DNA from: Ferribacterium limneticum
GTDB lineage: Bacteria; Pseudomonadota; Gammaproteobacteria; Burkholderiales; Rhodocyclaceae
Reading direction: 5' to 3'
Assembly (NCBI RefSeq): GCF_020510585.1
Contig: NZ_CP075190.1
Coordinates: 1,054,501-1,118,500 of the forward strand
Length of the DNA stretch: 64,000 nt
Shown in pieces: positions 4,484 to 58,052 of the stretch. Position 1 is the first letter of the stretch, and each line of letters starts with the position of its first letter. The translations under genes and the position numbers were made by a program. A model generated the notes under the pieces. That model was not told the DNA's origin and searched no databases. It saw only the letters and a program-made list of their open reading frames with translations.

Positions 4484-4520
4484 ATTTCAATTTTGGCCGT
4501 TTTTTCAGGTTGACCGTAGG
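4484..4520 (+). repeat. Dispersed 36-bp element, copy 1
   Basis: The copy reads ATTTCAATTTTGGC, CG, then TTTTTTCAGGTTGACCGTAG, in the direction of transcription. It lies between truA (stop 4451) and trpF (ATG 4533). The terminal GTAGGA falls close to where a ribosome binding site for trpF would be. Just upstream, GGGCCAAA (4469-4476) can pair with TTTGGCC inside the element, giving a hairpin followed by a T-run. Confidence 0.85.
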
Positions 4521-4532
4521 AATGAAGAATTC

Positions 4533-5159
4533 ATGAAAACACGGATCAAAATCTGTGGTCTGACCCGCGAAGAGGATGTCGACGCGGCGGTGGCGGCTGG
4601 TGCCGATGCGATCGGCTTTGTCTTCTATCCGCCCAGCCCGCGCTACGTCACTCCGCAGCGGGCGGCCGAACTGGCCAAGCGAATTCCGCCTTTTGTCGAT
4701 GTCGTCGGCCTGTTCGTGAACGAAGCGCCGGACGTCGTACGAGCGGCCTGCGAGGCCCTGCCCATCAACGTCCTGCAGTTTCACGGCGACGAGGATGCTG
4801 CCTATTGCCGCCAGTTCGCCCGGCCCTATCTGCGGGCGGCACGAGTGAGGCCGGGGCTTGATCTGGTAGAATTCGCCGGCTCGTTTCCCGACGCCCGGGG
4901 TCTGTTGCTGGATGCCTTTGTCGAGGGCTACGGTGGCGGTGGCCATGTCTTTGACTGGACGCTGATTCCGCCGAATCTCCCATCGTATCTGGTGCTTTCC
5001 GGCGGATTGACCGCAGACAACGTCGGCGATGCCGTGCGGCGCGTGCGCCCGGTGGCCGTCGATGTCTCGTCTGGCGTCGAAGCGGGCAAGGGAATCAAGG
5101 ATCACTCGAAAATCGCTGCCTTCGTGGCGGCTGTACGGAAAGCCGATGAGTCAATATAA
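4533..5159 (+). CDS. trpF: Phosphoribosylanthranilate isomerase
   Basis: Isomerises phosphoribosylanthranilate to CdRP in tryptophan synthesis. It is a 208-aa TIM barrel with the family N-terminus [12 protein letters not shown] (catalytic Cys in KICGLT), the HGDED segment and a C-terminal [13 protein letters not shown] phosphate-binding motif. ATG 4533 is the only good start. The 3' end overlaps trpB by 14 nt, so the two are translationally coupled. Confidence 0.97.
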
Positions 5160-6345
5160 CTTCCCCGACGCCAAGGGCCATTTTGGCCCTTACGGTGGCG
5201 TCTTCGTGGCCGAGACGCTGTTTGGCGCGCTCGATGAATTGAAGGAAGCCTACGCCGCAGCGCAGGCCGATCCGGCCTTCCGGGCCGAATACGAATACGA
5301 GCTCAAACATTTTGTCGGCCGTCCGTCGCCGATCTACCACGCCAAACGCTGGTCGGAAATGCTTGGTGGCGCCCAGATCTACCTGAAGCGTGAAGACCTC
5401 AACCACACCGGTGCCCACAAGGTTAACAACTGCATCGGCCAGGCCATGCTGGCCAAGCGCATGGGCAAGCCGCGCGTCATCGCCGAAACGGGCGCCGGCC
5501 AGCACGGCGTCGCCACGGCCACAGTCGCTGCCCGCTACGGCATGGAGTGCGTGGTCTATATGGGCAGCGAGGACGTCAAGCGTCAGGCGGCAAACGTCTA
5601 TCGCATGAAGCTGCTCGGCGCCACCGTCGTTCCGGTCGAATCCGGCTCGAAGACACTCAAGGACGCGCTCAATGAAGCGATGCGCGACTGGGTCACCAAC
5701 ATCCACAACACCTTCTACATCATTGGTACGGTCGCCGGTCCGCATCCGTATCCGATGCTGGTCCGCGATTTTCAGAAAATCATCGGCGAAGAATGCCTGG
5801 TTCAGATGCCGGAAATGACCGGCCGTCAGCCCGATGCGGTGATTGCCTGCGTCGGTGGTGGTTCCAACGCGATGGGAATTTTTTATCCCTACATCAACGT
5901 CGAGGGCGTTCGCCTGATCGGCGTCGAAGCCGCCGGTGACGGCATGGAAACCGGCCGCCACTCGGCCTCACTGACCGCTGGCGTGCCCGGCGTGCTGCAT
6001 GGCAACCGGACCTACCTGTTGCAGGATGAAGACGGCCAGATCATCGAAACTCATTCGATTTCGGCTGGTCTGGACTACCCGGGCGTCGGTCCGGAGCACG
6101 CTTGGCTCAAGGATATCGGCCGTGCTGAATACCAGCCGATCGACGACAGCGAAGCGCTGGCCGCCTTCCACACCCTGTGCCGCATCGAAGGCATCATCCC
6201 GGCGCTCGAATCCAGCCATGCGCTGGCTTACGCCGCCAAACTGGCGCCGACGTTGCCGAAGGACAAGATTCTGCTGGTCAATCTCTCCGGCCGGGGTGAC
6301 AAGGACATGCACACCGTGGCCGAGAAGTCGGGGATCGTTTTCTGA
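5146..6345 (+). CDS. trpB: Tryptophan synthase beta chain
   Basis: PLP enzyme that condenses indole with serine to form tryptophan. The 399-aa product starts [18 protein letters not shown] and contains the PLP lysine in [21 protein letters not shown], and the phosphate-binding GGGSNA loop. The start at 5146 lies inside the 3' end of trpF; the longer open frame upstream is not TrpB-like. The stop overlaps the trpA ATG (TGATG). Confidence 0.98.
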
Positions 6346-7151
6346 TGTCGCGCATAAAGACCGCTTTTGACCGGCTCAACGCCGAAGGCCGCAAGGCGCT
6401 GATTCCCTTCATCACAGCCGGCGATCCGGATGCCGCACTGACCCTGCCGCTCATGCAGGCGTTGGTCGAGGCCGGCGCCGATGTCATCGAACTCGGCGTG
6501 CCGTTCTCCGACCCGATGGCCGATGGCCCGACCATTCAGCGCGCCTCCGAACGCGCCCTGGCCAAGGGCATGACGCTGCGCAAGGTGCTGCAACTGGTCA
6601 GCGCCTTCCGTACGCTTGATGACAAAACGCCGGTTGTGCTGATGGGCTACGCCAATCCGATCGAGGCGATGGGCCTCGAGAAATTTGCCGAGAAGGCCGC
6701 GCAGTCCGGGGTCGATGGCGTACTCGTCGTCGATTACCCGCCCGAAGAAGCGGCCAGCTTTGGTGCTGCGATGAAGGCGCACGGCATGGATCCGATCTTC
6801 CTGCTGGCCCCGACTTCCAACGCCGAGCGCATCGCCCAGGTGGCCGAAATCGCCAGTGGCTACGTCTATTACGTCTCGCTGGCCGGCGTTACCGGTTCCG
6901 GCGCGCTCAACGTCGAGGCGGTGGCTGAGCGTCTGCCGCTGATCCGCGAAAAGACCGGTCTGCCGGTCGGGGTCGGTTTTGGCATCCGTGACGCGGCTAC
7001 CGCGGCTCGCATTGCCGCTATCGCCGACGCCGTTGTCGTCGGCAGCCGGATTATCGAAGAAATTGAAAAATCGACCGCGGAAACTGCCTGTGCCAACGTG
7101 AAAGCCTTGGTTGCAGACATTCGTCGCGGTGTGGATGAGGTGAAAAAATGA
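6345..7151 (+). CDS. trpA: Tryptophan synthase alpha chain
   Basis: Cleaves indole-3-glycerol phosphate to indole, which channels to TrpB. The 268-aa length is normal. Catalytic Glu lies in [16 protein letters not shown] and catalytic Asp in [11 protein letters not shown]. The glycerol-phosphate loop VGVGFGI is present near the C-terminus. It overlaps trpB by 1 nt and accD by 4 nt. Confidence 0.98.
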
Positions 7152-8017
7152 GCTGGCTGACCAAACTGCTGCCCCCCAAGATCAAGCGCGAGCAAGGCGC
7201 CCAGCGCCGCGGCAACCTGCCGGAAGGCCTGTGGAGCAAGTGCCCGTCCTGCGAGGCAGTGCTCTACGCGACCGATCTGGAAAACAACCTGCAGGTCTGC
7301 CCCAAGTGCGGCCACCACAACCGCCTGAATGCCCGCCAGCGCCTCGATATCCTGTTGGATGCCGAAGGCCGTTTCGAGATCGGCGCCGAGGTATTGCCGG
7401 TCGACAGCCTCAAATTCAAGGACTCCAAGCGCTATCCCGATCGTCTGATGGATGCCAATGAATCGAGCGGTGAAAGCGATTCGCTGGTCGTCCTGCAGGG
7501 TGCCATCAAGACCATGCCGGTCGTTGCTGCGGCCTTCGAGTTCGACTTCATGGGCGGCTCGATGGGCTCCGTGCTCGGCGAACGCTTCGTACGCGGCGTG
7601 CAAACCGCCGTCGAGCACAAGATGCCTTTCATCTGCATCACCGCATCCGGTGGCGCCCGCATGCAGGAAGGCTTGTTCTCGCTCATGCAGATGGCCAAGA
7701 CGACGGCCTCGCTGACCAAACTGTCCGAAGCCGGCCTGCCTTTTATCTCCATCCTGACCGACCCGACCATGGGCGGCGTTTCCGCCTCCTTCGCCTTTGT
7801 TGGCGACGTGGTCATTGCCGAACCCAAGGCGCTGATCGGCTTTGCCGGCCCGCGCGTCATCGAGCAGACCGTCCGCGAAACGCTGCCGGAAGGCTTCCAG
7901 CGCTCCGAGTTCATCATGGAAAAGGGCGCCATCGACATGATTGTCGACCGTCGCGAACTGCGCGATCAGGTCGCCCGCGTCCTGGCTCTGCTGCAAAAAC
8001 TGCCGGCTGCCGCTTGA
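7148..8017 (+). CDS. accD: Acetyl-CoA carboxylase carboxyltransferase beta subunit
   Basis: Transfers carboxyl from biotin carrier protein to acetyl-CoA, the first step of fatty acid synthesis. The 289-aa product has an N-terminal zinc ribbon (CPSC and [10 protein letters not shown]) and the crotonase-fold oxyanion region ([22 protein letters not shown]). ATGA overlap with trpA; the stop overlaps the folC TTG start. A trp-accD-folC arrangement is conserved in beta- and gammaproteobacteria. Confidence 0.97.
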
Positions 8018-9324: not shown

Positions 9325-9326
9325 TC

Positions 9327-10073: not shown

Positions 10074-10561
10074 CGGGTTTTGACTACGTTGTAATCGGGA
10101 TTGTCGCTGTCTCGCTGCTGTTTGGTTTGTGGCGTGGCGTGGTTGGCGAGGTAATCGCGCTGGTCGCTTGGGGCGTCGGGATTTTTGCTGCGATCGAGTT
10201 CGGTGCCTCGGTCGGGCATTCCGTTTTTGCCGGCTTGAGCGATCAAGCGTTGCGGACGCTGGCCGGTTGTGTAGTGATATTTGTCGGCATTCTGGTTTCG
10301 ATGGCGGTTTTGAACATGGTGGTACGCAGCATGGTCAAAGCCTTGGGCCTGTCCGTCTCGGATCGCATTCTCGGCATGATCTTCGGACTGGCGCGCGGAG
10401 TGCTGGTGTGCATGGTGCTGGTCGGGTTGGGGGGCATGACCTCTGCCCCGACGCAGTCGTGGTGGAAAAACGCCACGCTGGCGGCGCCTCTGGAAACCGT
10501 CGTTATGGCCGCCAAGCCTTGGCTGCCCGACGATTTGGCAAAACGAATTCGATTTAGCTAA
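10070..10561 (+). CDS. cvpA: CvpA family inner-membrane protein
   Basis: A 163-aa protein with four predicted membrane spans, starting MTGFDYVVIGIVAVS, typical of CvpA/colicin V production proteins. The family was named from colicin V secretion, but its molecular role is not settled. It overlaps dedD by 4 nt (ATGA) and precedes purF by 12 nt, as in E. coli and Pseudomonas. Confidence 0.93.
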   Translation: MTGFDYVVIGIVAVSLLFGLWRGVVGEVIALVAWGVGIFAAIEFGASVGHSVFAGLSDQALRTLAGCVVIFVGILVSMAVLNMVVRSMVKALGLSVSDRILGMIFGLARGVLVCMVLVGLGGMTSAPTQSWWKNATLAAPLETVVMAAKPWLPDDLAKRIRFS

Positions 10562-12115: not shown

Positions 12116-12117
12116 CC

Positions 12118-13353: not shown

Positions 13354-13412
13354 GTTTTTCCGGTTAACCGTGTTTGCTACGGTCAACCGGAAAAAATGCC
13401 CAAAATTGAAAT
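13354..13412. repeat. Dispersed 36-bp element, copy 2, with an inverted half-copy forming a long hairpin
   Basis: A full copy on the minus strand occupies 13377-13412. An inverted half-copy lies at 13355-13371. TTTTTCCGGTTAACCGT and ACGGTCAACCGGAAAAA pair at 16 of 17 positions around a 7-nt loop (GTTTGCT). The hairpin lies between metZ and the downstream helicase gene and could act on transcripts from either strand. Confidence 0.85.
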
Positions 13413-18287: not shown

Positions 18288-18893
18288 ATGTCTAAAGTAA
18301 TAAAACTTATAGTCGATAATATAGATATGAACCATCAATCCATCCAGCGCAGGCGAGGCCAGTTCGGTTTTACGCTGATCGAACTGATCGTCGTTATCAT
18401 CATTCTCGGCATCTTGGCCGCTGTTGCTTTGCCAAGATTTGTCAATTTGCAGCGCGATGCCCGCATCGCCAAGCTGCAGGCGGCTCGGGGCAGCGTCTCG
18501 GCGGCTGCGGCGCTGGTCCATGCCACAGCCTTTTCGCGGGCCGGGATTGCCGATACGGTAGCTTGTGCTGGCGGTGGCTTCGCCAACAACGCGACCGGTG
18601 CGACCGGCACCGTTTGTACCGAAAGCGGGATGGTCAACATGGTCTACGCCTACCCGGCGGTGACGGCAATCGGCACAGCCGGCATTCTCTCCATGGCGGG
18701 CCTTACCGGTGTATTCAATCCGACAGCCCAGGACCTGCAGGCTGAAGGCTATACCTACGACGTAGCCGGCGGTGTCGCCACCTTTGGCGTACTCGGGGCG
18801 ACGACTGCGGCCACCTGTTTCTTTACCTACACCCAACCGACGGCGCCGAATCAAGCGGCACCGGTCAGCGGGTTGACCACGACCGGATGTTAA
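18288..18893 (+). CDS. mshB: MSHA prepilin-like protein MshB
   Basis: A type IV prepilin of 201 aa. The cleavage motif is QFG/FTLIELIVVIIILGILAAVALPRF. I chose ATG 18288 because AAGGA lies 8 nt upstream; this gives an unusually long 27-residue leader. ATG 18327 would give a 14-residue leader but has no ribosome binding site. Bases 18280-18330 are much more AT-rich than their surroundings. The mature part is Ala/Thr/Gly-rich with several Cys. It is likely a minor pilin at the mshA-proximal position, as in Vibrio. Confidence 0.85.
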   Translation: MSKVIKLIVDNIDMNHQSIQRRRGQFGFTLIELIVVIIILGILAAVALPRFVNLQRDARIAKLQAARGSVSAAAALVHATAFSRAGIADTVACAGGGFANNATGATGTVCTESGMVNMVYAYPAVTAIGTAGILSMAGLTGVFNPTAQDLQAEGYTYDVAGGVATFGVLGATTAATCFFTYTQPTAPNQAAPVSGLTTTGC

Positions 18894-18917
18894 TTTTTTA
18901 ATTTTTAGGAGTTGGTG

Positions 18918-19328
18918 ATGAAAGCTATGCAAAAAGGTTTTACCTTGATCGAACTGGTGGTCGTGATCGTTATTCTCGGCATCCTGGCGGCAACGGCATT
19001 GCCGAAATTTGTTGATTTGACCGATGAGGCATCCACGGCTGCTGCGGCCGGCATTGCCGGCGGTATTTCGTCGGCTGCTACGGTGAATTACGCAGCCCGC
19101 AAGGGTAGTAATAACACTAAGGGTGTTGCCTATACCTCGGCCACGCCTTGTACTCGGACTGTAATAGATTCGATTATGCAGACGCCGCTGCCGTCTACCG
19201 GCTATACCTTTGCTCAAGTCGGAAGCACGAGCTGTGCGCTCGCGGCTCAGGATGGTACCGCCGTCAGCTGCACGGTAACGCCGACCAAGGGTACGGCCGC
19301 GACCGCAACCATCATTTGTGTCCAGTAA
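18918..19328 (+). CDS. mshA: Major MSHA pilin MshA
   Basis: A 136-aa prepilin: leader MKAMQKG, then [20 protein letters not shown] and the pattern [10 protein letters not shown] seen in MshA proteins. Four Cys in the C-terminal half can form the pilin disulfides. AGGAG sits 6 nt before ATG 18918, the best ribosome binding site among the pilin genes. A strong terminator follows directly, as expected for a gene needing much more product than its downstream neighbours. Confidence 0.88.
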
Positions 19329-19344
19329 GTCTATCCTGCTCAGT

Positions 19345-19370
19345 AAAAACCCGCCTGCTGGCGGGTTTTT
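19345..19370 (+). terminator. Intrinsic terminator between mshA and mshC
   Basis: AAAAACCCGCC (19345-19355), loop TGCT, GGCGGGTTTTT (19360-19370): a perfect 11-bp stem ending in five T. It starts 16 nt after the mshA stop and ends 16 nt before the mshC ATG. It probably makes the downstream pilin genes depend on read-through. Confidence 0.85.
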
Positions 19371-19386
19371 GCCTTGTAGTACCGGA

Positions 19387-19836
19387 ATGCAGGGTTTTAC
19401 TCTGATTGAGCTTGTAGCTGTCATCGTGATCATCGGCATCCTAGCGGTTGTCATGATTCCAAAATGGAGCGGCACCTCAGGTTTCGACGAGCGCGGTTTT
19501 CGCGATCGCGTTGTGGCCGGTTTGCGTTACGCCCAGAAATCTGCCATTGCCAGTCGGCGGACGGTTTGCGCCAGTTTTTCCTCGCCACCGGCAAGCGTTA
19601 CGTTTAGCCTGGCTGCCTTTGGTGCCGTGAATTGCGCAGTCAGCATTCCGCTGGTCGGGCCGGAAAGCACGCCGCTGGTGGTGACGGCAACTGGCGGTGT
19701 CAATTTTGCCGCCCTGCCGGCCGATGTTATTTTTGATGCGGCCGGGCGACCTGCTGCGGCTGCGTTGATCAATGTCTCCGGGCTTCCCGCCGCGCTGGCG
19801 ATCACCGTTGAGGCGGAAACGGGTTATGTTCATTAG
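19387..19836 (+). CDS. mshC: MSHA minor prepilin MshC
   Basis: A 149-aa prepilin starting [27 protein letters not shown], followed by a GspH-like pseudopilin pattern (GLRYAQKSAIASRRTVC). The ATG 19387 gives a leader of only three residues. A longer frame opens at 19318 but would run through the terminator stem. No good ribosome binding site is visible. The mshD ATG lies inside its 3' end. Confidence 0.82.
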   Translation: MQGFTLIELVAVIVIIGILAVVMIPKWSGTSGFDERGFRDRVVAGLRYAQKSAIASRRTVCASFSSPPASVTFSLAAFGAVNCAVSIPLVGPESTPLVVTATGGVNFAALPADVIFDAAGRPAAAALINVSGLPAALAITVEAETGYVH

Positions 19837-20380
19837 GCCAGCCTTGCAGCGCGGCATAACGCTGATCGAGCAGATTGTGTTCATCGTCATCGTCAGCGTT
19901 GGCGTGATGGGCCTGGTCTCGGTGATGAACCCGGCGATCCGGGCCAGCGCCAATCCGATGGTGACCAAGCAACTGGTTGCGATTGCCGAATCCCTGCTCA
20001 ACGAAGTCCTGCACCAGCCATTCACCTGGTGCGATCCCGATGATGTAGCGGCGGCGACGGCGCAGTCCTATGCCGATTGCGCCAATCCGCAAAATGCCTT
20101 CGGGCCGACGCCGGCGGGCGAGACCCGTTATGCGGCAGGTGCCACCCCGGCTTTCGACAACGTGGCGGATTATCACGGCGCCATGGCGACCATCGACGAT
20201 CCTTCCGGCAGCAATGCCATGGCCGGCTATACGGCCAACATCGTCATCGCCCGCGTTGGCAATGTCATGGGCCTGGCCGACGATACGGCGGCGCTCAGTG
20301 TCACGGTGACGGTTACCTTTGGCGCCGCTGAACCCTTTACCCTGACTGGCTACCGTTTCCGCTATGCGCCGCGCATTTGA
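19826..20380 (+). CDS. mshD: MSHA minor prepilin MshD
   Basis: A 184-aa prepilin: leader MFIRPALQRG, then ITLIEQIVFIVIVSVGVMGL, the usual MshD pattern with Ile at +1. It has Cys pairs in the mature part. ATG 19826 overlaps mshC by 11 nt. The TGA stop (20378-20380) lies inside copy 3 of the dispersed element, and the 3' end overlaps mshO by 17 nt. Confidence 0.85.
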   Translation: MFIRPALQRGITLIEQIVFIVIVSVGVMGLVSVMNPAIRASANPMVTKQLVAIAESLLNEVLHQPFTWCDPDDVAAATAQSYADCANPQNAFGPTPAGETRYAAGATPAFDNVADYHGAMATIDDPSGSNAMAGYTANIVIARVGNVMGLADDTAALSVTVTVTFGAAEPFTLTGYRFRYAPRI

Positions 20381-21188
20381 TTTTCGGCCGTTTTTTCCGG
20401 TTGACCGTGGATTCACACTGGTCGAGATGATCATTTCGATTGTCATTACCGGCATCGTCGTTTCGATGGTGGCGATCTTCGGGCGCGGGCAGGTCGAGGC
20501 CTACCTCGATGCTGGCAACCGCGCCGAGTTGTCCGATGCGGCCGACACCACGCTGCGCCGGATCGCCCGGGATTTGCAGGCGGCGCTGCCCAACAGTGTC
20601 CGGCTGTCGGGTAACTTCCTCGAGTTTGTGCCGATTCGCGATGCCGGCCGTTACCGGGCGGAACTGGATGCCGCGGCTGGCGGTGACATCCTTGATTTCA
20701 GCAGCAACATCGACAGTACTTTTGATGTGCTCGGGCCGTCAGTGACGATTCCAGCCGGGGACCAGCTGGTCGTTTTCAATCTGGGCCAACCCGGGTCGGA
20801 CGTTTATGAAGGCACCAGCCGGCGGGCCGTGACGCCCGGGGCAGGCCTGAGCAACATTATCTTCGCCCCGGCTGGCGCGCAGTTTCCGCTGGCCTCGCCG
20901 CAACACCGCTTCCAGATTGTCGGCGCGCCGGTAATTTACGAATGCAGCGTGGCGACGGGGCAATTGATCCGGCGCTCGGGTTTTGCATACGGTCACGCCT
21001 GGCCGCCGGTGCCTGCTGCGCTCGGCGGCATCGCGGCGGTCATGGCCGACAACGTGGCTGCCTGCTCCTTCAACTACGTGCCGGCCATTCTGCAACGCAA
21101 CGGGCTGGTCGTCCTGCGCCTGACGCTGACGCTCAACGGTGAGTCGGTCCAGCTGCTGCATCAGGTCGATGTACTGAACACGCCATGA
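20364..21188 (+). CDS. mshO: MSHA minor prepilin MshO
   Basis: A 274-aa prepilin: MRRAFDFRPFFPVDRG, then FTLVEMIISIVITGIVVSM. Residues 4-16, including the Gly at -1 of the cleavage site, are encoded by copy 3 of the dispersed element. The mature domain (TLRRIARDLQAALPNSVR) fits the GspJ-like minor pilins. ATG 20364 overlaps mshD. The stop overlaps the mshP ATG (ATGA). Confidence 0.86.
   Translation: MRRAFDFRPFFPVDRGFTLVEMIISIVITGIVVSMVAIFGRGQVEAYLDAGNRAELSDAADTTLRRIARDLQAALPNSVRLSGNFLEFVPIRDAGRYRAELDAAAGGDILDFSSNIDSTFDVLGPSVTIPAGDQLVVFNLGQPGSDVYEGTSRRAVTPGAGLSNIIFAPAGAQFPLASPQHRFQIVGAPVIYECSVATGQLIRRSGFAYGHAWPPVPAALGGIAAVMADNVAACSFNYVPAILQRNGLVVLRLTLTLNGESVQLLHQVDVLNTP
20375..20410 (+). repeat. 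Dispersed 36-bp element, copy 3 (in mshD stop / mshO leader)
   Basis: Reads ATTTGATTTTCGGC, CG, then TTTTTTCCGGTTGACCGTGG. Its first bases provide the TGA stop of mshD. In the mshO frame it encodes FDFRPFFPVDRG up to the prepilin cleavage site. Confidence 0.9.
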
Positions 21189-21676
21189 TTTCAAATTTGC
21201 CCATTTTTTCCGGTCGACCGTCGGAATCAGGAATTTCGCCGAGAGGGCGCCAGCGTGGCGTTTCCATTGTCACCGGCGTCTTTCTGCTGTTGCTCATGGC
21301 GGTCCTGGCTGCTGTCATCGCCAACGTCGTGTCGACGGCACACGTGAACATGGCCGCCGACATCGGCGGCGCGCGCGCCTACCAGGCGGCGCGGGCCGGT
21401 GCTGAGTGGGGCATGTTCCAGCTCGACCCGAATGCCCAGGGCGCCGGGCTGCCCGCCTGTGCCAACACCAATACGGTCGTGCTCGGCCATAACGTGGCGG
21501 TCAACTGCCAGAGCTGGGATACGACGGAGGGGAGTCGCCTGATTCGCATCTACCGGATTGTTTCGCAAGCCACCGCCATCGGCGTGAAGGCGCCAGGCAT
21601 CGAGCGCCAGGTCGAGGTGACGCTGGAAAAATGCCGGGATCCGCTGGTGATCACCGTTGCACCTTTTGATTGCTGA
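21185..21676 (+). CDS. mshP: MSHA biogenesis protein MshP
   Basis: A 163-aa protein with a leader ending RGRQRG and a hydrophobic stretch VSIVTGVFLLLLMAVLAAVIANVV, the PilX-like pattern of MshP. Residues 2-14 come from copy 4 of the dispersed element, read in a different frame from mshO. The mature part contains DIGGARAYQAARAGAEWGMF, conserved in PilX/MshP. It overlaps mshO by 4 nt. Confidence 0.82.
   Translation: MISNLPIFSGRPSESGISPRGRQRGVSIVTGVFLLLLMAVLAAVIANVVSTAHVNMAADIGGARAYQAARAGAEWGMFQLDPNAQGAGLPACANTNTVVLGHNVAVNCQSWDTTEGSRLIRIYRIVSQATAIGVKAPGIERQVEVTLEKCRDPLVITVAPFDC
21188..21224 (+). repeat. Dispersed 36-bp element, copy 4 (N-terminus of mshP)
   Basis: Reads ATTTCAAATTTGCC, CA, then TTTTTTCCGGTCGACCGTCGG with one extra base. 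The consensus GGTTGACC would place TGA in the mshP frame; here it is GGTCGACC, keeping the frame open. It starts at the last base of the mshO stop codon. Confidence 0.88.
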
Positions 21677-21698
21677 GTGTTGCGTGGGGATGGCGACG

Positions 21699-24600
21699 AT
21701 GAAGGCAAAAATACGGATAGCCCATAAGTTTTTCGCCCGCTGGCTTTTGCCGGCAGTCCTGGTCTTCCTGCCCGGTATCGCGATGGCAACGGTAAGCATC
21801 AATTCGGCGACAGTGAACGGTGGGGCGACGGTCACCGTCAGCCCCGGCGGCAACATTACGGTTAGTGCGAACGCGACGACCAGCGGTAGCGGTACCAATG
21901 ACGACTGGGGTTCGATACGCTGGGCCATCGCCACGTCGGCGCCATCCGCCGCATCCATGACTTGCGATGCATCGCCCAATTTCAATGGCGACGGTACCTA
22001 TACCCAGGCCTTCAGTGCTACCGCCCCGGCCAGCGCCGGCACCTACAACCTGTATCTGATTGCCTACAACGACAACGCCTGTTCCAGCGGCGCCAGTGCC
22101 ACCTATTCGCGGGCCGGCGCGGTGGTGGTAGACCCGACGCCTCGGGTGCTGTCGATCAATCGCCTCAGCTTCGACCCTTCTGCGGCCGGGGCTTCGGTTC
22201 AGTGGGAGGTGACGTTTTCCGGCTCGGTGAGCGGTGTCGATACGACTGACTTTTCGCTCGTCCAGACTGCTGGCGCGACGGGAGCCAGCTTTGTTTCGGT
22301 GAGCGGTTCGGGGACGACCTGGACGGTCACGGCCAATACCGGGACCGGGTCTGGTACCTTGCGGCTCAATCTTGTCGACGATGACAGCATCGTCTCCGGC
22401 GGCGTCAAGCTTGGGGGCGCGGGGTTGGGCAATGGCAATTTCACGGGGCAGGCGTATACCTTGCTGCCGACCGTCTGTACGCCGGGGCTGCTGTTCTGCG
22501 ATGACTTCGAGCGCGCCAACCCCGGTTCGATTGGCAATGGCTGGACTGTGACGCCGACCTCGTCTTCCAGTGGCTGCAACGGCACGGCGGGCAACATCGG
22601 TTGCGGCGGCATCGACAGCGATATTCCGCCGTTCAATACCTATTCGAATCCACGGCCCAACCCGACGCGCGCCATGTTCACGCGTTGGGCGCAAGTGACG
22701 GTGCAAAGTCCGACCGTCAACCTGGCGGGTAAAGCCGGGGCGCAGCTCAGCTTCTGGATGCGGCGCGGCGATGACTCGTTCAGCGAGTGCCCTGAGGCCA
22801 CCGGTGAAAACTACCTGGTTAAATATCTGGCCAGCGACAACACCTGGAAAATCCTCGCCCAGTATCCGTCAGCGCCATCCGGTTCATTGTGCGACGGGGG
22901 GCCAGTCTATCTGCCGGTCATCGAATTGCCGCCCGATGCACTGCATGCCAATTTCGCCATGCAGTTTTATCAGCCGTCCGGCAGTGGCGACAGCGGCAGC
23001 GGCGGGGCGTCCGGTGTGGTCGGCTACGACTACTGGCACATGGACAACGTGATCATTCGCGAAACGCCGGGCAGCACATTTACCGGTGCCTTCTGCGACA
23101 ACTTCGAAGGCGGCCTGGGGCGCTGGAGTATTTCGGCCGAGGGCGCGCCGGGGACTGCTGCGATCGGTGATTCAAGAATCGGTACCCTGGCCTACAGTTC
23201 GGCGACACATGAGCTGGATTTGCGCTGGGGTTATGTCTCGGCCGCAACGTTCAAGACCAATATGACCGGCGTTTCCGGCGACATTACCTACTGGGTGCGC
23301 AGCGGCACGACAACTGCCCGTGATCCGGACAGCGGTGAGAATCTGGTGGTCGAGTACCTCAACAGCAGCGGGGTGTGGACCAATCTGGACACTTATCTCG
23401 GCACGGCGGCGGCCGGAACGGTCTACAACGGTTCGCATCCCATTCCGGCCGATGCCAAACACACCGGGTTTCGCCTGCGTTTCCGCCAGCTGAACGGTAG
23501 TGGCTATGACAATGACTACTGGCACGTGGACGATGTCTGCGTCGGCAACCTGCTGCCGACCGCCGATCTGGCCATCACCAAAACGCGGGGCGGTGCGCTG
23601 GTGCCGGGAACGAACGCAACCTACACGCTGGCGGTGACGAACAACGGGCCGGACGCGATGGCCGGTTCTCTGGAAATTGTCGATACCCTGCCCACGGGTC
23701 TGAGCTATCTGGCGCACAGCGGTACCGGCTGGAGTTGTGGTGTCAGCGGTCAGGTCATCACCTGCGGCTGGTCGGGGACCGTGAACAATGGCAGCGCCGC
23801 GCCGCCGCTGCTGATCACCGTGCGGGTCGACGCGGCAGCCTCCGGTTCGCTGGTCAACACGGCGACGGTGAACGGGACGGCGAACGACCCGGTGTCCGGC
23901 AACAATACGGCGACCGATACGGCCGCCATCTACACGCCGAGCTATGTGTTCACCGACCGGGCCTGTACCTCCGGCGTGGCCATCGGCAGCGGGGCGAATC
24001 CGTGCAATCTCGTCAACTGGTCGCCGCAGGTGGCCGGCGTGGCCTTGAGCGGCATCTATATCACTGCCCTCAATACATCGGGAGTTCCTACCCAGCTGAG
24101 CGGGACGACAGCGACCTCGGTGGGCTTCCAGTTCGCGCTGTCGTGTATCAATCCAACCGCCAATGCCGGCATTCAGGCCAGCTTCTCGGCGACCGCGACA
24201 GCATTGCCGCTTTGTGCTGCCAACGGCGCGATTCCTGGCACCTGGACGGCATCGACCAACCTCAGTTTTCCGGCGACATCGCCCAGTGTCGGCCCCTACA
24301 GTTTCAGCTACGCCGACGTTGGGCAGGTTGAGCTGTACATGCGCAACAGCGCGGCGACGAGTCAGATCGGCTCGAGCGATCCGTTCGTGGTCAAGCCCTA
24401 CAGCTTGGTGCTGACCGACATCAAGCAGACTGCCTCGCCCTTTACGGCAAACCCGGCGGCGGCTACGGCAGCCGGGAATCGCTTCGTGCGGGCCGGCGAA
24501 AACTTCTCGGCGACGGTCACTGCGGTCAACGCCTCCTGCGCCGCCAGCCTGGGCGGCTATACCCTGCTGGCCAGCATTCCGGCTTCCTGCAAGACGCCCA

Positions 24601-25673
24601 ACTTTGGTCGGGAAAGCGCACCGGAAGCCATTTCGATCAGCAGTACCCTGGTGGCCGGGCTTAATCTGACCAACAATCCGGCGATCACCAATTCGACCGC
24701 CTTTGGTGCCTTTGCCTCAGCTTCTGCTACCGGCACCACCTTCACCTGGGACGACGTCGGAATCATCACGCTGACTCCGGCTATCAGCGATGCCGACTAT
24801 CTTGGTGGTGGTGCCGTGAATGCGACGGTCAGCGGCAATGTCGGGCGTTTTTATGCCGATCATTTCGATGTAGTGGTGACCATGCAGTGCGCCGGTTTTG
24901 TCTATGGCGGTCAGCCGACGCCGGTAGTGCCGGGCCAACCGTTTACGGTGACGGCAACGGCCATGAATGCCAAGGGTGCGACGACGCCGAATTTCAATTC
25001 GACCAGTGGCTTCGCAAAAAGCGTCAACTTGTCGCTGGCTGCCGGTGGCGGCTCGGGAGGCTTGTACGTTGATGCCGTCGCCGGAGGAAATGGCGCCATC
25101 CCGGCTGGCAAGTTTTTGGCCGGGGTCGGGACGGTGGCGTTCAACGATTTGGCCGGCCGGATTTCCTATGTTTTCAGCGTATTTCCGACGGTAAGCACGG
25201 CGATTGCCGTTCATGCCGAAGATGCCGATTCAGCATCCGGCACGGCGCTGATGGCCGGGGCCAACGGCGCGGCCGTGGTCCGCGCCGGGCGCCTGTCCTT
25301 GACCAACGCCTATGGCAGTGAATTGCTGCCCCTCAACGTACCGGTGAGAGTTCAGCAATGGACGGCGAGTGGGTGGACGACCAATGTGGCTGATACCTGT
25401 ACGGCACTGACCGTTCCGACCAACGGAAACACCGGCCTGACCAATACCCTGAGCACGAAGACGGCGGCAACGCTTTCGTCGCCTGTGGCGGCCGGCGATT
25501 CGCGTTTTCGCCTGTCGGCGCCGGGGGCGGGAAATGCCGGTCTGGTTGATATCGCGGGGAATATCGTGCGCGGCGCCAATACCTGGCTGACCCTCTCGGC
25601 ACCCACTGCCCGCGCCTGTTTTGGTTCCTGCGGTCCACGTTCTCCCGTAATCTATTTTCGGGAGCGGTATTGA
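21699..25673 (+). CDS. mshQ: MshQ-like large secreted/adhesin-like protein
   Basis: A 1324-aa protein. ATG 21699 has GGGGA 8 nt upstream and gives a signal peptide (WLLPAVLVFLPGIAMA). Two related beta-rich segments follow, beginning CDDFERANPG (about 22497) and CDNFEGGLGRW (about 23094). Next is a DUF11-like segment (about 23568-23930, LAITKTRGGALVPGTNATYT). The last 580 residues resemble the C-terminal MshQ (DUF6701-type) region. Position at the end of the pilin block matches MshQ. A tip or surface role is inferred. Thr/Ala/Gly-rich composition is typical of such proteins. Confidence 0.8.
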   Translation: MKAKIRIAHKFFARWLLPAVLVFLPGIAMATVSINSATVNGGATVTVSPGGNITVSANATTSGSGTNDDWGSIRWAIATSAPSAASMTCDASPNFNGDGTYTQAFSATAPASAGTYNLYLIAYNDNACSSGASATYSRAGAVVVDPTPRVLSINRLSFDPSAAGASVQWEVTFSGSVSGVDTTDFSLVQTAGATGASFVSVSGSGTTWTVTANTGTGSGTLRLNLVDDDSIVSGGVKLGGAGLGNGNFTGQAYTLLPTVCTPGLLFCDDFERANPGSIGNGWTVTPTSSSSGCNGTAGNIGCGGIDSDIPPFNTYSNPRPNPTRAMFTRWAQVTVQSPTVNLAGKAGAQLSFWMRRGDDSFSECPEATGENYLVKYLASDNTWKILAQYPSAPSGSLCDGGPVYLPVIELPPDALHANFAMQFYQPSGSGDSGSGGASGVVGYDYWHMDNVIIRETPGSTFTGAFCDNFEGGLGRWSISAEGAPGTAAIGDSRIGTLAYSSATHELDLRWGYVSAATFKTNMTGVSGDITYWVRSGTTTARDPDSGENLVVEYLNSSGVWTNLDTYLGTAAAGTVYNGSHPIPADAKHTGFRLRFRQLNGSGYDNDYWHVDDVCVGNLLPTADLAITKTRGGALVPGTNATYTLAVTNNGPDAMAGSLEIVDTLPTGLSYLAHSGTGWSCGVSGQVITCGWSGTVNNGSAAPPLLITVRVDAAASGSLVNTATVNGTANDPVSGNNTATDTAAIYTPSYVFTDRACTSGVAIGSGANPCNLVNWSPQVAGVALSGIYITALNTSGVPTQLSGTTATSVGFQFALSCINPTANAGIQASFSATATALPLCAANGAIPGTWTASTNLSFPATSPSVGPYSFSYADVGQVELYMRNSAATSQIGSSDPFVVKPYSLVLTDIKQTASPFTANPAAATAAGNRFVRAGENFSATVTAVNASCAASLGGYTLLASIPASCKTPNFGRESAPEAISISSTLVAGLNLTNNPAITNSTAFGAFASASATGTTFTWDDVGIITLTPAISDADYLGGGAVNATVSGNVGRFYADHFDVVVTMQCAGFVYGGQPTPVVPGQPFTVTATAMNAKGATTPNFNSTSGFAKSVNLSLAAGGGSGGLYVDAVAGGNGAIPAGKFLAGVGTVAFNDLAGRISYVFSVFPTVSTAIAVHAEDADSASGTALMAGANGAAVVRAGRLSLTNAYGSELLPLNVPVRVQQWTASGWTTNVADTCTALTVPTNGNTGLTNTLSTKTAATLSSPVAAGDSRFRLSAPGAGNAGLVDIAGNIVRGANTWLTLSAPTARACFGSCGPRSPVIYFRERY

Positions 25674-32808: not shown

Positions 32809-32835
32809 CTGAGGACTGACGGTTGGCCGGGACTT

Positions 32836-32871
32836 CCACGGTCAACCGGAAAATTCGCCTTATTTTGAAAT
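32836..32871 (-). repeat. Dispersed 36-bp element, copy 5
   Basis: On the minus strand it reads ATTTCAAAATAAGGCG, then AATTTTCCGGTTGACCGTGG. It overlaps the 3' end of the YjdF-like gene: the last codons and the TAA stop (32862-32860) lie inside the element. Confidence 0.85.
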
Positions 32872-33478: not shown

Positions 33479-35292
<1,814 letters not shown>

Positions 35293-35296
<4 letters not shown>

Positions 35297-35328
35297 GGTC
35301 AACCGGAAATTTTGGTCAAAATTGAAAT
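35293..35328 (-). repeat. Dispersed 36-bp element, copy 6 (between lpxH and recQ)
   Basis: On the minus strand: ATTTCAATTTTGACCAAAA, then TTTCCGGTTGACCGTGG. It begins 2 nt after the lpxH stop and ends inside the recQ start; GACCGTGG supplies the GTG. Confidence 0.88.
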
Positions 35329-41047: not shown

Positions 41048-41613
41048 TAATTGGCTTGGGTTTCCGCCTTGTTGGCGGGCGTACTTTCTTTTGCTTCGCC
41101 AAAAGAAAGTAGCCAAAGAAAAGGCGACCCCGAGGGCGGCGCCGGCTTTGCCGGTCCCTTGCGCTACTCGGAACGCCGGGCGGCTGGCTAAACTCGCCTG
41201 CGGCTCAAACAACGCCAGCCGACTGCCCCCGGCCTTCCTGCGTTGCTCAGCGCCTTCCACGGGGACCCCAAAGGCGTCCGGGTTCGACCGTTTTGCCAAA
41301 AGAGCAGGCTCCCACGGTCAACCGGAAAAAACAGCCAAAATTGAAATCTGCCATCTTGGCACCCAAGCCCAAGCGCGGATCGTTTCACCGGGCCCCTTGA
41401 GAGGTGCCGAGCAACGCAGGGTCTGGCGGATAAAGGGCGAGGACTGTCTGAGGGCGAAGCCCGAGTTCCGCAGCCCCCGCCAGTCCCGAGTAGCGCAGGG
41501 AACCGGCGCAGCCGGCACCGACCTAGGGTCGCCTTCTTTTTGCTTATTTTTTCTTGGCGAAGCAAGAAAAAGTGAGACGCCCCGCAAGGGCGGAACCCCA
41601 AGCCAATTTAGAA
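41048..41613. repeat. Large imperfect inverted repeat, non-coding, about 565 bp
   Basis: The left arm begins AATTGGCTTGGGTTTCCGCC and the right arm ends GGCGGAACCCCAAGCCAATT, its near-complement. Inside, CTTTTGCTTCGCCAAAAGAAAG (left, near 41089) mirrors the CTTGGCGAAGCAAGAAA region (right, near 41552). GGCCGGTCCCTTGCGCTACTC-like sequence mirrors GAGTAGCGCAGGGAACCGG, and CCTGCGTTGCTCAGC mirrors GAGCAACGCAGG. The centre holds copy 7 of the dispersed element. Open frames here are short and mirrored, so I see no gene. A transcript would fold into a long hairpin. Such arms resemble intergenic repeats seen in other betaproteobacteria. Confidence 0.75.
41312..41347 (-). repeat. Dispersed 36-bp element, copy 7 (centre of the large inverted repeat)
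   Basis: On the minus strand: ATTTCAATTTTGGC, TG, TTTTTTCCGGTTGACCGTGG. This is a near-perfect consensus copy. Confidence 0.92.
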
Positions 41614-42829: not shown

Positions 42830-42923
42830 TGTTTTTTCTCCCCCTTGTTTGATCAATCGATTCTAACAGTCGGGGATATTACCGGGAACAGGGCGACCCG
42901 GACTTTCGGCATTTTGTTCAGTC

Positions 42924-42959
42924 TTACGGTCAACCGGAAAAAATGGCCAAAAATGAAAC
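42924..42959 (-). repeat. Dispersed 36-bp element, copy 8 (after dnaJ)
   Basis: On the minus strand: GTTTCATTTTTGGCC, A, TTTTTTCCGGTTGACCGTAA. It directly follows the dnaJ terminator stem and supplies its T-rich tail. Confidence 0.88.
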
Positions 42960-46229: not shown

Positions 46230-46246
46230 CCGCATTGACTAGTCTT

Positions 46247-46282
46247 CTACGGTCAACCGGAAAAAACGCCCAAAAGTGAAAT
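46247..46282 (-). repeat. Dispersed 36-bp element, copy 9 (after grpE)
   Basis: On the minus strand: ATTTCACTTTTGGGC, G, TTTTTTCCGGTTGACCGTAG. It begins 4 nt after the grpE stop and ends 17 nt before the dnaK -35 box. Confidence 0.92.
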
Positions 46283-52162: not shown

Positions 52163-52609
52163 TTAAGGTTTGTGGAGATGCGGCTGTATCCAGCGTTTCA
52201 GCGAGCCGAGGTCGAGCGCGCCGCTCTGGCGGGCGATCTCGCGGCCATTAATAAATATGGCCAGCGTCGGAATGCTGCGGATATTGAAGCGGGCGGCCAG
52301 TTGCTGTTCGGCTTCTGTATCGACCTTGACCAGACGGGCGTAGGGTTCGAGATCAATGGCGGCCTGATGGAAATTCGGTGCCATTTGCCGGCATGGCCCG
52401 CACCAGGGCGCCCAGAAATCGACGACGACGGGCAGGTCGTTGCGCGAGATGTGGCGGTCGAAATTGGCTGCGGTCAGTTCGGTCGGCTCACCGGTGAACA
52501 GCGGCTGTTTGCACTGACCGCAGTTCGGTGAGTCTTTCAATTTTTGGCCAAAAATCCGGTTGACCGTGGAACAGTGCGGACAGACGACGTGCAGGCTTTC
52601 TTCAGGCAT
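52163..52609 (-). CDS. trxC: Thioredoxin 2 (TrxC)
   Basis: A 148-aa thioredoxin with an N-terminal zinc ribbon (CPHC...CGQC) and the active site WAPWCGPCRQ. Length and alignment with E. coli TrxC are normal. ATG 52609 has GGAG 6 nt upstream. Codons for TVNRIFGQKLK in the zinc ribbon coincide with copy 11 of the dispersed element, in the opposite orientation to the element consensus. Confidence 0.93.
   Translation of the reverse strand: MPEESLHVVCPHCSTVNRIFGQKLKDSPNCGQCKQPLFTGEPTELTAANFDRHISRNDLPVVVDFWAPWCGPCRQMAPNFHQAAIDLEPYARLVKVDTEAEQQLAARFNIRSIPTLAIFINGREIARQSGALDLGSLKRWIQPHLHKP
52534..52569 (+). repeat. Dispersed 36-bp element, copy 11 (inside trxC)
   Basis: Reads CTTTCAATTTTTGGCC, then AAAAATCCGGTTGACCGTGG; it matches the consensus at most positions, but the T-run centre is AAAAAT. 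It lies in the TrxC coding region and keeps the frame. Confidence 0.7.
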
Positions 52610-52660
52610 CGGGCGCTCCAAATATCATGTTTTTCTGATATGGGTACCCGGTGCCGGATT

Positions 52661-54792: not shown

Positions 54793-54834
54793 GGCTGAGG
54801 ATTGTACAAAAAACGGGGCGGCAGCGACGGGCGA

Positions 54835-55353
54835 TTATGGTTGGCCTCCGGGATGTAGTGCCAGGCGGCGCGATTCGAATTCCTGGCGCAGTTCACGCCG
54901 GAGCATGGCCGACTGGTAACGGCGCTTTTCCTCGTCGGTGGTTGGTTCCAGCGGTGGCACGCTGGTCGCCTTGCCGTTTTCATCGACCGCCACCATGGTG
55001 AAAAAGCAGCTGTTGGCATGGCGCACACTTTGCTCGCGGATGTTCTCGGTGAGCACCTTGACGCCAATTTCCATCGAGGTCCGGCCGGTGTAATTGACAG
55101 CGGCCAGAAAAGTGACCAGTTCGCCGACGTGGATGGGCTGGCGGAACATCACCTGGTCGACCGACAGGGTGACGACATATTCGCCGGCATAGCGGCTGGC
55201 ACAGGCGTAGGCGACCTGGTCGAGCAGTTTGAGGATGGTGCCGCCATGGACGTTGCCGGAAAAATTGGCCATGTCCGGCGTCATCAGGACGGTCATGCTG
55301 AGTTGGTGGTTGGCAAGAGGCATGGGTATTTGCGCGCAAGGTTGGTGAGTCAT
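54835..55353 (-). CDS. Acyl-CoA thioesterase (hotdog fold)
   Basis: A 172-aa hotdog thioesterase of the YciA/acyl-CoA hydrolase type. The pattern [34 protein letters not shown] is the family signature, with the catalytic Asp in LLDQ. Start ATG 55353 was chosen; 55323 is a shorter option. It is divergent from nadK with a 75-nt gap. Confidence 0.9.
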
Positions 55354-55428
55354 GTTACTGCGCTTTTCCGGCGAATCGGTGCTGTCCGGTGGCACGATTG
55401 CGCGGTTTTTATGCAAGAATTCGACCCC

Positions 55429-56340
55429 ATGAACAGAAGCTTCGCTTCCATCCGCAATCCCCGGACCATCGCGCTGGTCGGCAAATACCACAGCATGGAA
55501 ATTGCCGAGTCGCTGCGTCGTCTGGCAGAGTACCTTTACGAGCGCGGTGTCTCGGTCTTCATCGAGCGCGAAACATCCGAGCACATCGGCAAGAAGGTCG
55601 ACCTGTCGCGCTGGGTGACCTGCGGCTTCAACGACATCGGCGCCCATGCCGACCTCGCCATCGTGCTTGGCGGCGACGGCACGATGCTCAACGCGGCGCG
55701 CCGTCTGGCCCGCTATTGCGTGCCGCTGGTCGGCGTCAATCAGGGTCGGCTCGGCTTCATGACCGACATCGCCCGTGACGACCTGCTGACCTGCATGGAC
55801 GACCTGCTCGACGGCCGCTTTGCCCAGGAAAACCGCATGTTGCTGGCCGCCGAAGTGACGCGCGACGGCAAGGAAATTGCCGAAAACCTGGCACTCAACG
55901 ATGTCGTGGTCGACAAGGGCGCTATTGGCCGAATGATCGAATTCGAGTTGTTCATCGACGGCGAGTTCATCTACAACCTGCGCTCCGACGGCCTGATCGT
56001 CTCGACACCAACCGGTTCGACGGCCTATTCGATGTCGGCCGGCGGGCCGATCCTGCATCCGACGACCGCCGGCATCGCCCTCGTGCCACTCTGTCCGCAC
56101 GCCCTGAGCAACCGGCCGATCATCGTCAATGACAGCGCCGACATCGAATTGCGCATCGCCAATGCCGACGATGCGCGCGTGCACTTCGACGGTCAGGTGA
56201 CGCTTGACCTGCAGCGTGGCGATTGCGTCCGCCTGCGCCGTTCCGAACACGCCATCTGTTTCCTGCACCCGCCGGGCTACAGTTATTTCGCCATGCTGCG
56301 CCAGAAGCTGCAGTGGAGCGAGCGTCCCAAGGGTACCTGA
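55429..56340 (+). CDS. nadK: NAD kinase
   Basis: Phosphorylates NAD to NADP. The 303-aa product has the [12 protein letters not shown] and [11 protein letters not shown] motifs and [20 protein letters not shown] 55429 gives the standard short N-terminus; an in-frame ATG at 55411 adds six residues. The stop overlaps the recN ATG (TGATG). Confidence 0.97.
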
Positions 56341-57998
56341 TGCTGCAGCACCTGACGATTCGCGACTTTGTCATTGTCGACCGGCTGGAGCTTTCGTTTT
56401 TGGCCGGGTTTGGCGCGTTGACCGGCGAAACTGGGGCTGGCAAGTCGATCCTGATCGACGCCTTGGCGCTGGCCCTCGGTGAACGCGCCGATGCCGGCGT
56501 CGTTCGTTCCGGCTGCGACAAGGCCGAAGTCGCAGCCACCTTCGATATCACCGCCCAGCCGCAAGTGGGCGACTGGCTGCGCGCCAATGACCTTGAGGGC
56601 GATGACGAACTGTTGCTGCGTCGCGTCGTCGATGCCGGCGGCCGGTCGCGCGCCTACATCAATGGCTCGCCGGCGACCGTTCAGCAACTGCGCGAAGTCG
56701 GCGAATGGCTGGTCGATATCCACGGCCAGCATGCCCATCAGTCGCTGTTACGGGCCGAAGCCCAGCGCACGCTGCTCGACAGCCACGCGGGCCTGAGCGG
56801 ACAGTCGCGTGAAGTCGCCGCCGCCTGGAAAATCTGGCGCGACGCCGAGCAAATGCTGCGTACCGCCAGCGACGGCGCCGACGTGCTCCAGCGCGAACGC
56901 GAGCAGTTGCAATGGCAAATCGGCGAACTCGATGCCTTGGCTTTTGGCGACGACGAATGGGCGACGCTCGACGTCGAACACCGTCGCCTCGGGCACGCCG
57001 CCAGCCTGATCGAGGGTGCGCAATACGCGCTGGCCATCCTTTCCGACGACGAAGCTGCCTGCGAACGCCAGATCGATAGCGTCGCCACGCGGCTCGGCAA
57101 TCTCGCCGAGTACGATCCGGCGCTGGCCGAAGTCGCCGCGCTGATTGGCTCGGTGCAGGCCGAATTGTCAGACGCCGTGTCCACCCTGCGCCGCTACGCC
57201 GACCGGGCCGATCTCGACCCGACACGCCTGGCTCAGGTCGAGCGCCGGATGGACGCGGTGATGAGCCATTCCCGCAAGTATCGCGTCCAGCCGGCCGAAC
57301 TGCCGGGCCTGCTCGCCAGCTGGCGGCAGCGCCTCGCTGAACTCGACGAATCAGCCGATCTGGCGGCGCTCGAAACGAAGGTCGCCGCCGCCCGTAAGGA
57401 TTATCTGGCCCAGGCCGAAAAACTCTCGACTGGCCGCAAGAAAGCGGCAACCGAGATGGGCCAGGCAGTCAGCGAAATCATGCGCCAACTGGCACTGTCC
57501 TCCGGCCGTTTCGAAGTCGCCCTGGTCCCGGTTGCCGATGGTGCCGTCTACGGCCTGGAGCAGATCGAATTCCGCATCGGTGGCCTGGCCGGCAACGAAG
57601 CCAAGCCGCTGGCCAAGGTCGCTTCGGGCGGCGAGTTGTCGCGCATCAGCCTGGCGATACAAGTACTCACTTCGCGCTCAGCCAGCGTCCCGACCTTGAT
57701 TTTCGACGAGGTTGATGTCGGTATCGGCGGCGGCGTCGCCGAAATCGTCGGCCGCCTGCTGCGCGAACTGGGCAGTGAACGTCAGGTCCTCTGCGTCACC
57801 CACCTACCGCAAGTCGCCGCCCAGGCCAACTGGCAGTGGCAGGTCAGCAAGGCGACGCGCGATGGCATCACCTTGAGCGCCATTCAGCCGCTAGCCGAAG
57901 CCGGCCGAATCCAGGAAATCGCCCGCATGCTGGGCGGGGTCGATATCACCGATATCACCTTGCAGCATGCACGGGAACTGCTCCGCCTGAAGGCGTGA
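56340..57998 (+). CDS. recN: DNA repair protein RecN
   Basis: SMC-like ATPase for double-strand break repair, 552 aa. Walker A GETGAGKSIL, the QHAHQSLL Q-loop region, long coiled-coil arms, the ABC signature KVASGGELSRISLA and Walker B LIFDEVDVGIGG are intact. It overlaps nadK by 1 nt, a pairing conserved in proteobacteria. Confidence 0.97.
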   Translation: MLQHLTIRDFVIVDRLELSFLAGFGALTGETGAGKSILIDALALALGERADAGVVRSGCDKAEVAATFDITAQPQVGDWLRANDLEGDDELLLRRVVDAGGRSRAYINGSPATVQQLREVGEWLVDIHGQHAHQSLLRAEAQRTLLDSHAGLSGQSREVAAAWKIWRDAEQMLRTASDGADVLQREREQLQWQIGELDALAFGDDEWATLDVEHRRLGHAASLIEGAQYALAILSDDEAACERQIDSVATRLGNLAEYDPALAEVAALIGSVQAELSDAVSTLRRYADRADLDPTRLAQVERRMDAVMSHSRKYRVQPAELPGLLASWRQRLAELDESADLAALETKVAAARKDYLAQAEKLSTGRKKAATEMGQAVSEIMRQLALSSGRFEVALVPVADGAVYGLEQIEFRIGGLAGNEAKPLAKVASGGELSRISLAIQVLTSRSASVPTLIFDEVDVGIGGGVAEIVGRLLRELGSERQVLCVTHLPQVAAQANWQWQVSKATRDGITLSAIQPLAEAGRIQEIARMLGGVDITDITLQHARELLRLKA

Positions 57999-58016
57999 GG
58001 CCGATTTTCCGGAGTC

Positions 58017-58052
58017 CTACGGTCAACCGGAAAGAACGGCAAAAATTCAAAT
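58017..58052 (-). repeat. Dispersed 36-bp element, copy 10 (stop of the UPF0016 gene)
   Basis: On the minus strand: ATTTGAATTTTTGCC, G, TTCTTTCCGGTTGACCGTAG. The TGA in ATTTGA is the stop codon of the UPF0016 gene. Just beyond, TTTTCCGG (58005-58012) can pair with CCGGAAA in the element, echoing the inverted half-copy at copy 2. Confidence 0.88.

Follow-up and report, generated by a model that had tools for sequence, protein, structure and literature searches.

A dispersed 38-bp motif of Azonexus/Dechloromonas as a likely DNA uptake sequence with several dialects in one genus

According to a 2025 paper, the Neisseriaceae, with the DNA uptake sequence (DUS), and the Pasteurellaceae, with the uptake signal sequence (USS), are the only families known to have uptake sequences, and both include notable human pathogens (PMC12616744). 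Their genomes are described as carrying hundreds of motifs, with discontinuous AT-rich parts in the USS, dialects within a family, and inverted pairs that serve as terminators (PMC12616744, PMC3630211, PMC13020248). Uptake sequences are further reported to be under-represented in new segments and evenly spread via molecular drive (PMC7811141), and to show an orientation and position bias in genes (PMC2346458); the USS is described as evolving by point mutation (PMC1939737), and the dialects of the DUS as following phylogeny (PMC3630211). We examined a 38-bp motif present in 11 copies within a 64-kb stretch of the Ferribacterium limneticum chromosome (the 64,000 nucleotides analysed here, termed the window), whose TruA relatives are Azonexus/Dechloromonas. 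On comparative grounds, this motif is likely to be the DNA uptake sequence of this genus.

The motif resembles the Pasteurellaceae USS in having many copies on both strands that are relatively evenly spread (PMC12616744, PMC7811141, PMC1939737, PMC2346458), in its layout, with two AT-rich tracts to one side of a core, the USS being a discontinuous motif of up to ~32 nt (PMC12616744), and in its evolution by point mutation, its scarcity in new segments and its biased in-gene placement (PMC7811141, PMC1939737, PMC2346458). It differs in its core, which is GGTYGACCG as opposed to the USS inner core GCGG within AAGTGCGGT or ACAAGCGGT, and in that the in-gene copies favour the 5' fifth of genes only. 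With the DUS of the Neisseriaceae it shares the occurrence of several dialects per lineage with a common inner part, a very high over-representation, and members of the group without an obvious repeat (PMC3630211); the DUS, in contrast, lacks AT tracts and is continuous, with a length of at most ~13 nt (PMC12616744), has a CTG-containing core in a GCCGTCTGAA-type word, and has a known receptor, ComP, the receptor in Azonexus/Dechloromonas being only proposed. The motif is neither a USS nor a DUS by sequence, and in behaviour it appears to be an equivalent element of a third lineage.

Abundance, placement and spacing of the motif

The window's own genome (G000; 4,419,140 bp in one contig) was searched with the 18-mer TTTTCCGGTTGACCGTRG at up to 2 mismatches, giving 627 matches (319 forward, 308 reverse), compared to none for the reversed pattern; a search of this genome and of related genomes with the consensus had been proposed in the original prediction, and the motif was found in the relatives as well. 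A position weight matrix (PWM) applied at a threshold of at least 12 bits detected 98 copies in 464 kb and none in the reversed sequence. Ranked by over-representation in 864 kb, the 10- and 12-mers were headed by words of the motif, e.g., GGTTGACCGTGG was counted 74 times vs 0.18 expected. Within the window, a 33-mer consensus at up to 3 mismatches recovered 8 of the 11 copies and gave no match in 100 shuffles. The excess over expectation was large, and the copies were not placed at random relative to genes, in agreement with the original claim that the family did not arise by chance.

All 11 copies were confirmed, so the repeat is real, and its unit was 38 bp, not 36 bp as first described. 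The base profile, prepared from 77 copies in 464 kb (any at the ends of stretches excluded), gave a ~38-bp consensus, ATTTCAATTTTGGCCNTTTTTTCCGGTTGACCGTRGNA, with sharp edges. The core, GGTTGACCG, was nearly invariant, and the AT tracts lay on one side of it about one helical turn apart, with A and T interchangeable there; the AT-rich 5' half had been defined too strictly at the outset, the actual profile being looser in this part.

The 864-kb sample (about one fifth of the genome; coding fraction 88.9% of bases) contained 169 copies, with 76 lying wholly in genes, 22 across gene edges and 71 between genes, where the "edge" and "inside" counts are approximate because genes were called by a simple gene finder with rough start codons (the copy at 20375 being an example). 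Convergent gaps contained 37 copies (in 16.6 kb) vs 9 in divergent gaps (20.8 kb), and a same-strand stop codon lay at the start of 16 of the 93 copies not inside genes. This represents a 3'-end preference and bears out the proposed enrichment at gene ends. The in-gene copies were found in both orientations and in all six frame/strand classes, mostly in two of them (31 in opposite-strand frame 2 and 28 in same-strand frame 1), and the peptides from these favoured frames resemble FxFGxFFRLTVE and xTVNRKxxxK.

The copies were spaced more evenly than chance. None of the 78 gaps in 360 kb was shorter than 500 bp, compared to 15% in 2000 placements that preserved the coding/intergenic mix, and the variance/mean ratio of copy counts was 0.75 for bins of 5 kb and 0.52-0.57 for bins of 10-20 kb. 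The number of copies per 5 kb increased with GC content: 0.10 below 0.56 GC (21 bins), 0.39 at 0.56-0.59 (28 bins), 1.07 at 0.59-0.62 (76 bins), and 1.37 at 0.62 and above (59 bins). The low-GC DNA, where copies are rare, is probably foreign. The 3.66-3.70 Mb stretch of this genome and the stretches taken from the relatives G042, G048 and G065 were picked near listed matches, so that the copy densities within them are not unbiased.

The core and AT tracts suggest recognition by a specific protein, and the early suggestion of a protein-binding site stands as a candidate. The motif could in principle be the site of an intracellular nucleoid-associated or chromosome-organising protein, kept by selection, with the dialects tracking change in the protein, and the high copy number and even spacing would suit such an organiser; however, there was no obvious origin/terminus or strand pattern in the sampled stretches, as judged without a formal test, the occurrence of several dialects and of motif-free species within one genus would be unusual turnover for an essential organiser, and mid-gene copies accompany change at the protein level. 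We regard this explanation as unlikely. A site for terminus exclusion or nucleoid occlusion was considered and dropped: the region from 1.33 to 3.06 Mb had seemed to lack exact plus-strand copies, but the sampled stretches showed this to be an artefact.

Dialects and their change between species

The occurrence of the motif was assessed in 76 Azonexus/Dechloromonas genomes (G000 and 75 relatives), and it was restricted to this one genus. The generic pattern TTTNNCGGTYGACCGYRR matched 67 of the 76 (0 to 330 matches each); outside the genus, it matched 18 of 393 other genomes of the order, with a maximum of 2 each, and none of all 7 from other genera of the same family.

Sister species have different, largely exclusive dialects, GGTTGACCGTRG, GGTCGACCGTGA and GTCGACCGCAAC. 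The own type of the window's genome, counted at up to 1 mismatch in G000 and 24 relatives, gave 458 matches in G000, 477 in G002, 244 in G012, 155 in G003 and 46 in G005, with 18 or fewer in each of the other 20. Matches to GGTCGACCGTGA numbered 355 in G011, 317 in G042, 141 in G049 and 56 in G019, with 29 or fewer in the other 72 of the 76 genomes, the number of sites being lower than these match numbers because a word with a palindromic centre can count on both strands at one site (as seen in G049). The word GTCGACCGCAAC was found in G020 (384), G054 (327), G066 (277), G021 (270), G023 (257), G024 (168), G008 (149), G015 (122), G010 (100), G076 (96), G068 (80) and G017 (63), and at 40 or fewer in the other 64 genomes, the highest among these being G019.

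Three dialects had one common layout when copies were aligned (47 from G020, 17 from G053, which has the own-type dialect, and 42 from G042): an AT tract, about four G/C, a second AT tract, and the core. The core in G042 is palindromic with AT tracts on both sides, and G065 has a further variant ending in GACCGCRG (8 rows). Of the aligned G020 copies, 25 of the 47 were inside genes. No comparable word was found in the samples of G041 (180 kb) and G016 (100 kb); since a 100-kb sample of G024 was without GTCGACCGCAAC though the whole genome has 168 matches, the missing word in the samples of G016 and G018 (64 kb) is weak evidence.

A maximum-likelihood tree was prepared from two proteins of 20 species, with the motif codons removed. 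The own-type genomes G000, G002 and G012 grouped at support 100, with G005 and G007 next; G019, with two dialect words, joined the motif-free G013 at support 75.

Change of the motif was followed at two in-gene sites in 15 species each, using 14 loci (L126-L139) plus G000 (L125) for the first, with L140-L142 (fragments or short matches) excluded, and 14 loci (L144-L157) plus G000 (L143) for the second, with L158 (internal stop) and the weaker matches L159-L167 excluded. At both sites, the motif was present, partial or absent via base changes. The element codons of the first site were free of indels in all 15 rows, and those of the second had indels in 3 of 15 (G007, G014 and G017), all at the last two codons. 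G020 had its own dialect, CGGTCGACCGCAAC, at the same codons of the first gene, and G011 had GGTCGACCGTGA at the same codons of the second gene. The motif evolves mainly by base substitution at these two in-gene sites. Separately, L129 (the G002 orthologue of G000:C1:604666-607701) has ~40 extra residues shortly after the motif-encoded peptide.

At the truA-trpF site (window 4452-4532), 27 rows were compared: 10, representing the window's clade, had the motif in the spacer, 11 were motif-free with the two genes abutting, and 6 had intermediate or other spacers. Empty sites in relatives had been proposed as a check for mobility, and the outcome depended upon the site, with mainly substitution at the in-gene sites and an indel involved at truA-trpF.

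REP (repetitive extragenic palindromic) elements with their RAYT transposases are dispersed short repeats, many of them intergenic. A REP-like element moved by an unseen enzyme was among the roles first proposed, and both the high copy number and the spacer difference at truA-trpF would fit it or an element like a miniature inverted-repeat transposable element. A search for PF01797 (RAYT) in 25 genomes found matches in 12, including one or two each in G010, G011 and G015, where other dialects abound, so the exclusion of RAYT/REP elements is not clean. There was, however, no PF01797 match in G000, G002, G003, G005 and G012, the richest in the own type (at least 46 copies) among the genomes searched; the in-gene copies (76 of 169) sit in open frames though 38 is not a multiple of 3, and, unlike REP elements, they changed mainly by substitution at the two sites followed, form dialects and are evenly spaced. 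The proposed mobility was not supported by these data, and we consider it very improbable.

Copies within the window and signals at RNA 3' ends

The copies found within the window, and two second cores beside them, were as follows.

4484..4521, plus strand: motif copy in the truA-trpF spacer (PWM 61.3 bits).
13361..13370, plus strand: second core CGGTTAACCG, whose distance to the core of the 13375-13412 copy is 18 nt; the two form a hairpin (fold z -5.1).
13375..13412, minus strand: motif copy between the metZ-like (O-succinylhomoserine sulfhydrylase) and rhlE-like genes (PWM 65.4 bits).
20375..20412, plus strand: motif copy over the stop of the open reading frame (ORF) 19772-20380, in the N-terminal leader region of ORF 20364-21188 (prepilin-type N terminus).
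21188..21225, plus strand: motif copy spanning both the stop of ORF 20364-21188 and the start of ORF 21185-21676.
32820..32829, plus strand: second core-like sequence CGGTTGGCCG, whose distance to the core of the 32834 copy is 18 nt.
32834..32871, minus strand: motif copy over the stop of a DUF2238 gene, convergent with a DUF3334 gene.
35291..35328, minus strand: motif copy between the lpxH and recQ-like genes, 2 nt past the lpxH stop.
41310..41347, minus strand: motif copy in the gap between a cysS-like gene (plus) and a periplasmic binding protein gene (minus).
42922..42959, minus strand: motif copy downstream of dnaJ.
46245..46282, minus strand: motif copy between grpE and dnaK, 4 nt past the grpE stop.
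52534..52571, plus strand: motif copy in the zinc-ribbon part of a trxC-like gene, on the opposite strand; the gene strand encodes CSTVNR here.
58015..58052, minus strand: motif copy overlapping the stop of ORF 58047-58652, with a RecN/SMC-type gene convergent to it.

The trxC copy shows how the motif can be accommodated within a domain of a housekeeping protein. The two copies at 20375 and 21188 lie in overlapping gene ends of an operon (window 18327-25673) that encodes a large DUF6701 protein along with proteins whose N termini are of the prepilin type, and which we take to be MSHA-like (mannose-sensitive haemagglutinin). The gene calls were ambiguous within window 38.4-41 kb, where the Pfam matches were to a cysS-like domain on the plus strand and to tetratricopeptide repeats on the minus strand.

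Two early remarks on the position of the copies were approximately right within the window. In six copies, the end of a same-strand stop codon falls within a range from 4 nt upstream to 12 nt downstream of the element start, and the copies mostly point with the transcription of their neighbours. The rule of direction did not extend to the genome: in the tandem gaps of the 864-kb sample 22 copies were oriented with transcription and 24 against it, showing that the rule was a small-sample effect.

An mRNA 3'-end signal or transcription terminator, likewise suggested at the outset, would account for the enrichment downstream of stops and in convergent gaps, and the pair of cores at 13.36 kb gives a strong hairpin with a 17-bp stem. 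Yet the tandem-gap orientation was unbiased, close to half of the sampled copies (76/169) lie inside genes, and a second core 18 nt away was found in just 5 of the 169 (two direct, three inverted or palindromic). All five of the single window copies folded as RNA were unremarkable (z -0.64 to 1.18 vs shuffles), i.e., no more than 0.7 standard deviations from the shuffles or less stable than these, and at gathering thresholds Rfam gave no match within the window. Signalling of RNA 3' ends was not supported as a general role, and its probability appears to be close to nil. Judging from these five folds and the scarcity of second cores, the copies do not each have the stable hairpin plus U tract of an intrinsic terminator, and for the same reasons any terminator use is secondary here.

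Competence genes and biased uptake of self DNA

Free DNA bound by competent cells would be sorted by a receptor at the surface, most likely a minor type IV pilin, that prefers fragments with the motif; the motif would act as a "self" password by which environmental bacteria would prefer DNA of their own kind. Motif-carrying fragments would be taken up more often and then swap in for the homologous chromosomal stretch by recombination, and chance near-matches would be driven towards the consensus wherever coding constraint permits. Copies would then be expected by the hundred and in either orientation, with a high density at gene ends, a lower one in genes, an even spread, and none in newly acquired DNA. 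We read the motif as an uptake sequence because its copy number, placement, spacing, substitution and dialects match what biased uptake plus recombination would predict. We infer that the recogniser belongs to the DNA-uptake machinery, with the receptor being a surface pilin, and that molecular drive maintains the motif.

The comEC gene of G000 was split by a 43-kb insertion (G000:C1:2720194-2765330, L212-L214), the larger part being ComEC/Rec2 by NCBIfam. The genes of the insert include an rve/Mu-type transposase adjoining a TniB-like ATPase, two-component and cyclic di-GMP genes, and a weak Shedu-like match. There was no motif copy within this insert, the flanks of which contain copies, and none within a 34-kb insert in the comEC of G002. 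In at least 10 of the 76 genomes, comEC was present on one contig as fragments separated by 2-64 kb, with recurrent breaks near profile positions 145-165 and 590. Matches to ComEC (TIGR00361) and to TIGR00426, which we take to be the ComEA region, were each obtained in 75 of the 76 genomes (68 and 67, respectively, above the curated cut-off), motif-free genomes included. The main text of PMC8649781 does not contain the word "comEC".

Another motif-biased route of transfer, i.e., a gene transfer agent or the packaging of a transducing phage, could drive the motif by the same logic as uptake, as any biased transfer with recombination would give the same pattern. However, the exact 18-mer was found in only 3 IMG/VR stretches (one in each of contigs L252, L253 and L254), although no search for packaging systems was made, and the layout parallels that of the USS (PMC12616744). 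A search with the 38-mer gave no plasmid matches and one weak partial phage match. The chance that such a route maintains the motif seems very slight.

Several observations weigh against the motif being an uptake sequence. Only the two in-gene sites were followed between species, and at truA-trpF the genes abut in the 11 motif-free rows, and therefore an indel was involved. Of the 73 in-gene copies in genes of at least 300 bp, 25 fall in the 5' fifth, a lean towards one end and not both, and copies inside genes were few in the samples of G053 (3 of 17) and G042 (7 of 42). The generic pattern was absent from 9 of the 76 genomes, G019 has two dialect words at middling counts (GGTCGACCGTGA 56, GTCGACCGCAAC 40), and the GTCGACCGCAAC species, with G011 among them, grouped at support 50 only. 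Since its comEC is split by 43 kb, the window's strain may at present be unable to undergo transformation. Matches to ComEC and TIGR00426 were also obtained in 12 and 9 of 14 control genomes, respectively, and so these matches do not separate motif-rich from motif-free species and show only that the machinery is not missing. There were no uptake or transformation data for the genus in the literature searched, which left most subscription journals and bioRxiv uncovered; with the same scope, no other uptake-sequence case was found among the matches listed for Dechloromonas, Azonexus, Rhodocyclaceae, Rhodocyclales or Betaproteobacteria.

With these points weighed, it is likely that Azonexus/Dechloromonas has a third, independent system for uptake of self DNA. 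Its dialects, at least three, would divide this environmental genus into groups that exchange DNA; the motif would be lost in some species, and exchange may be switched off by mobile elements, which repeatedly land in comEC. The sources named for the relatives are soil, sludge and reactor. If this is true, a third case in environmental bacteria would mean that sequence-specific uptake evolves repeatedly, and outside mucosal hosts too; it would place several uptake dialects within one genus, uptake sequences having so far been described in only two other bacterial families; and it would account for the 10- and 12-mers that rank highest by over-representation in the window's genome. The 76 genomes, with their dialects, losses and intermediates, would then serve for testing molecular drive, receptor-motif co-evolution and sexual isolation.

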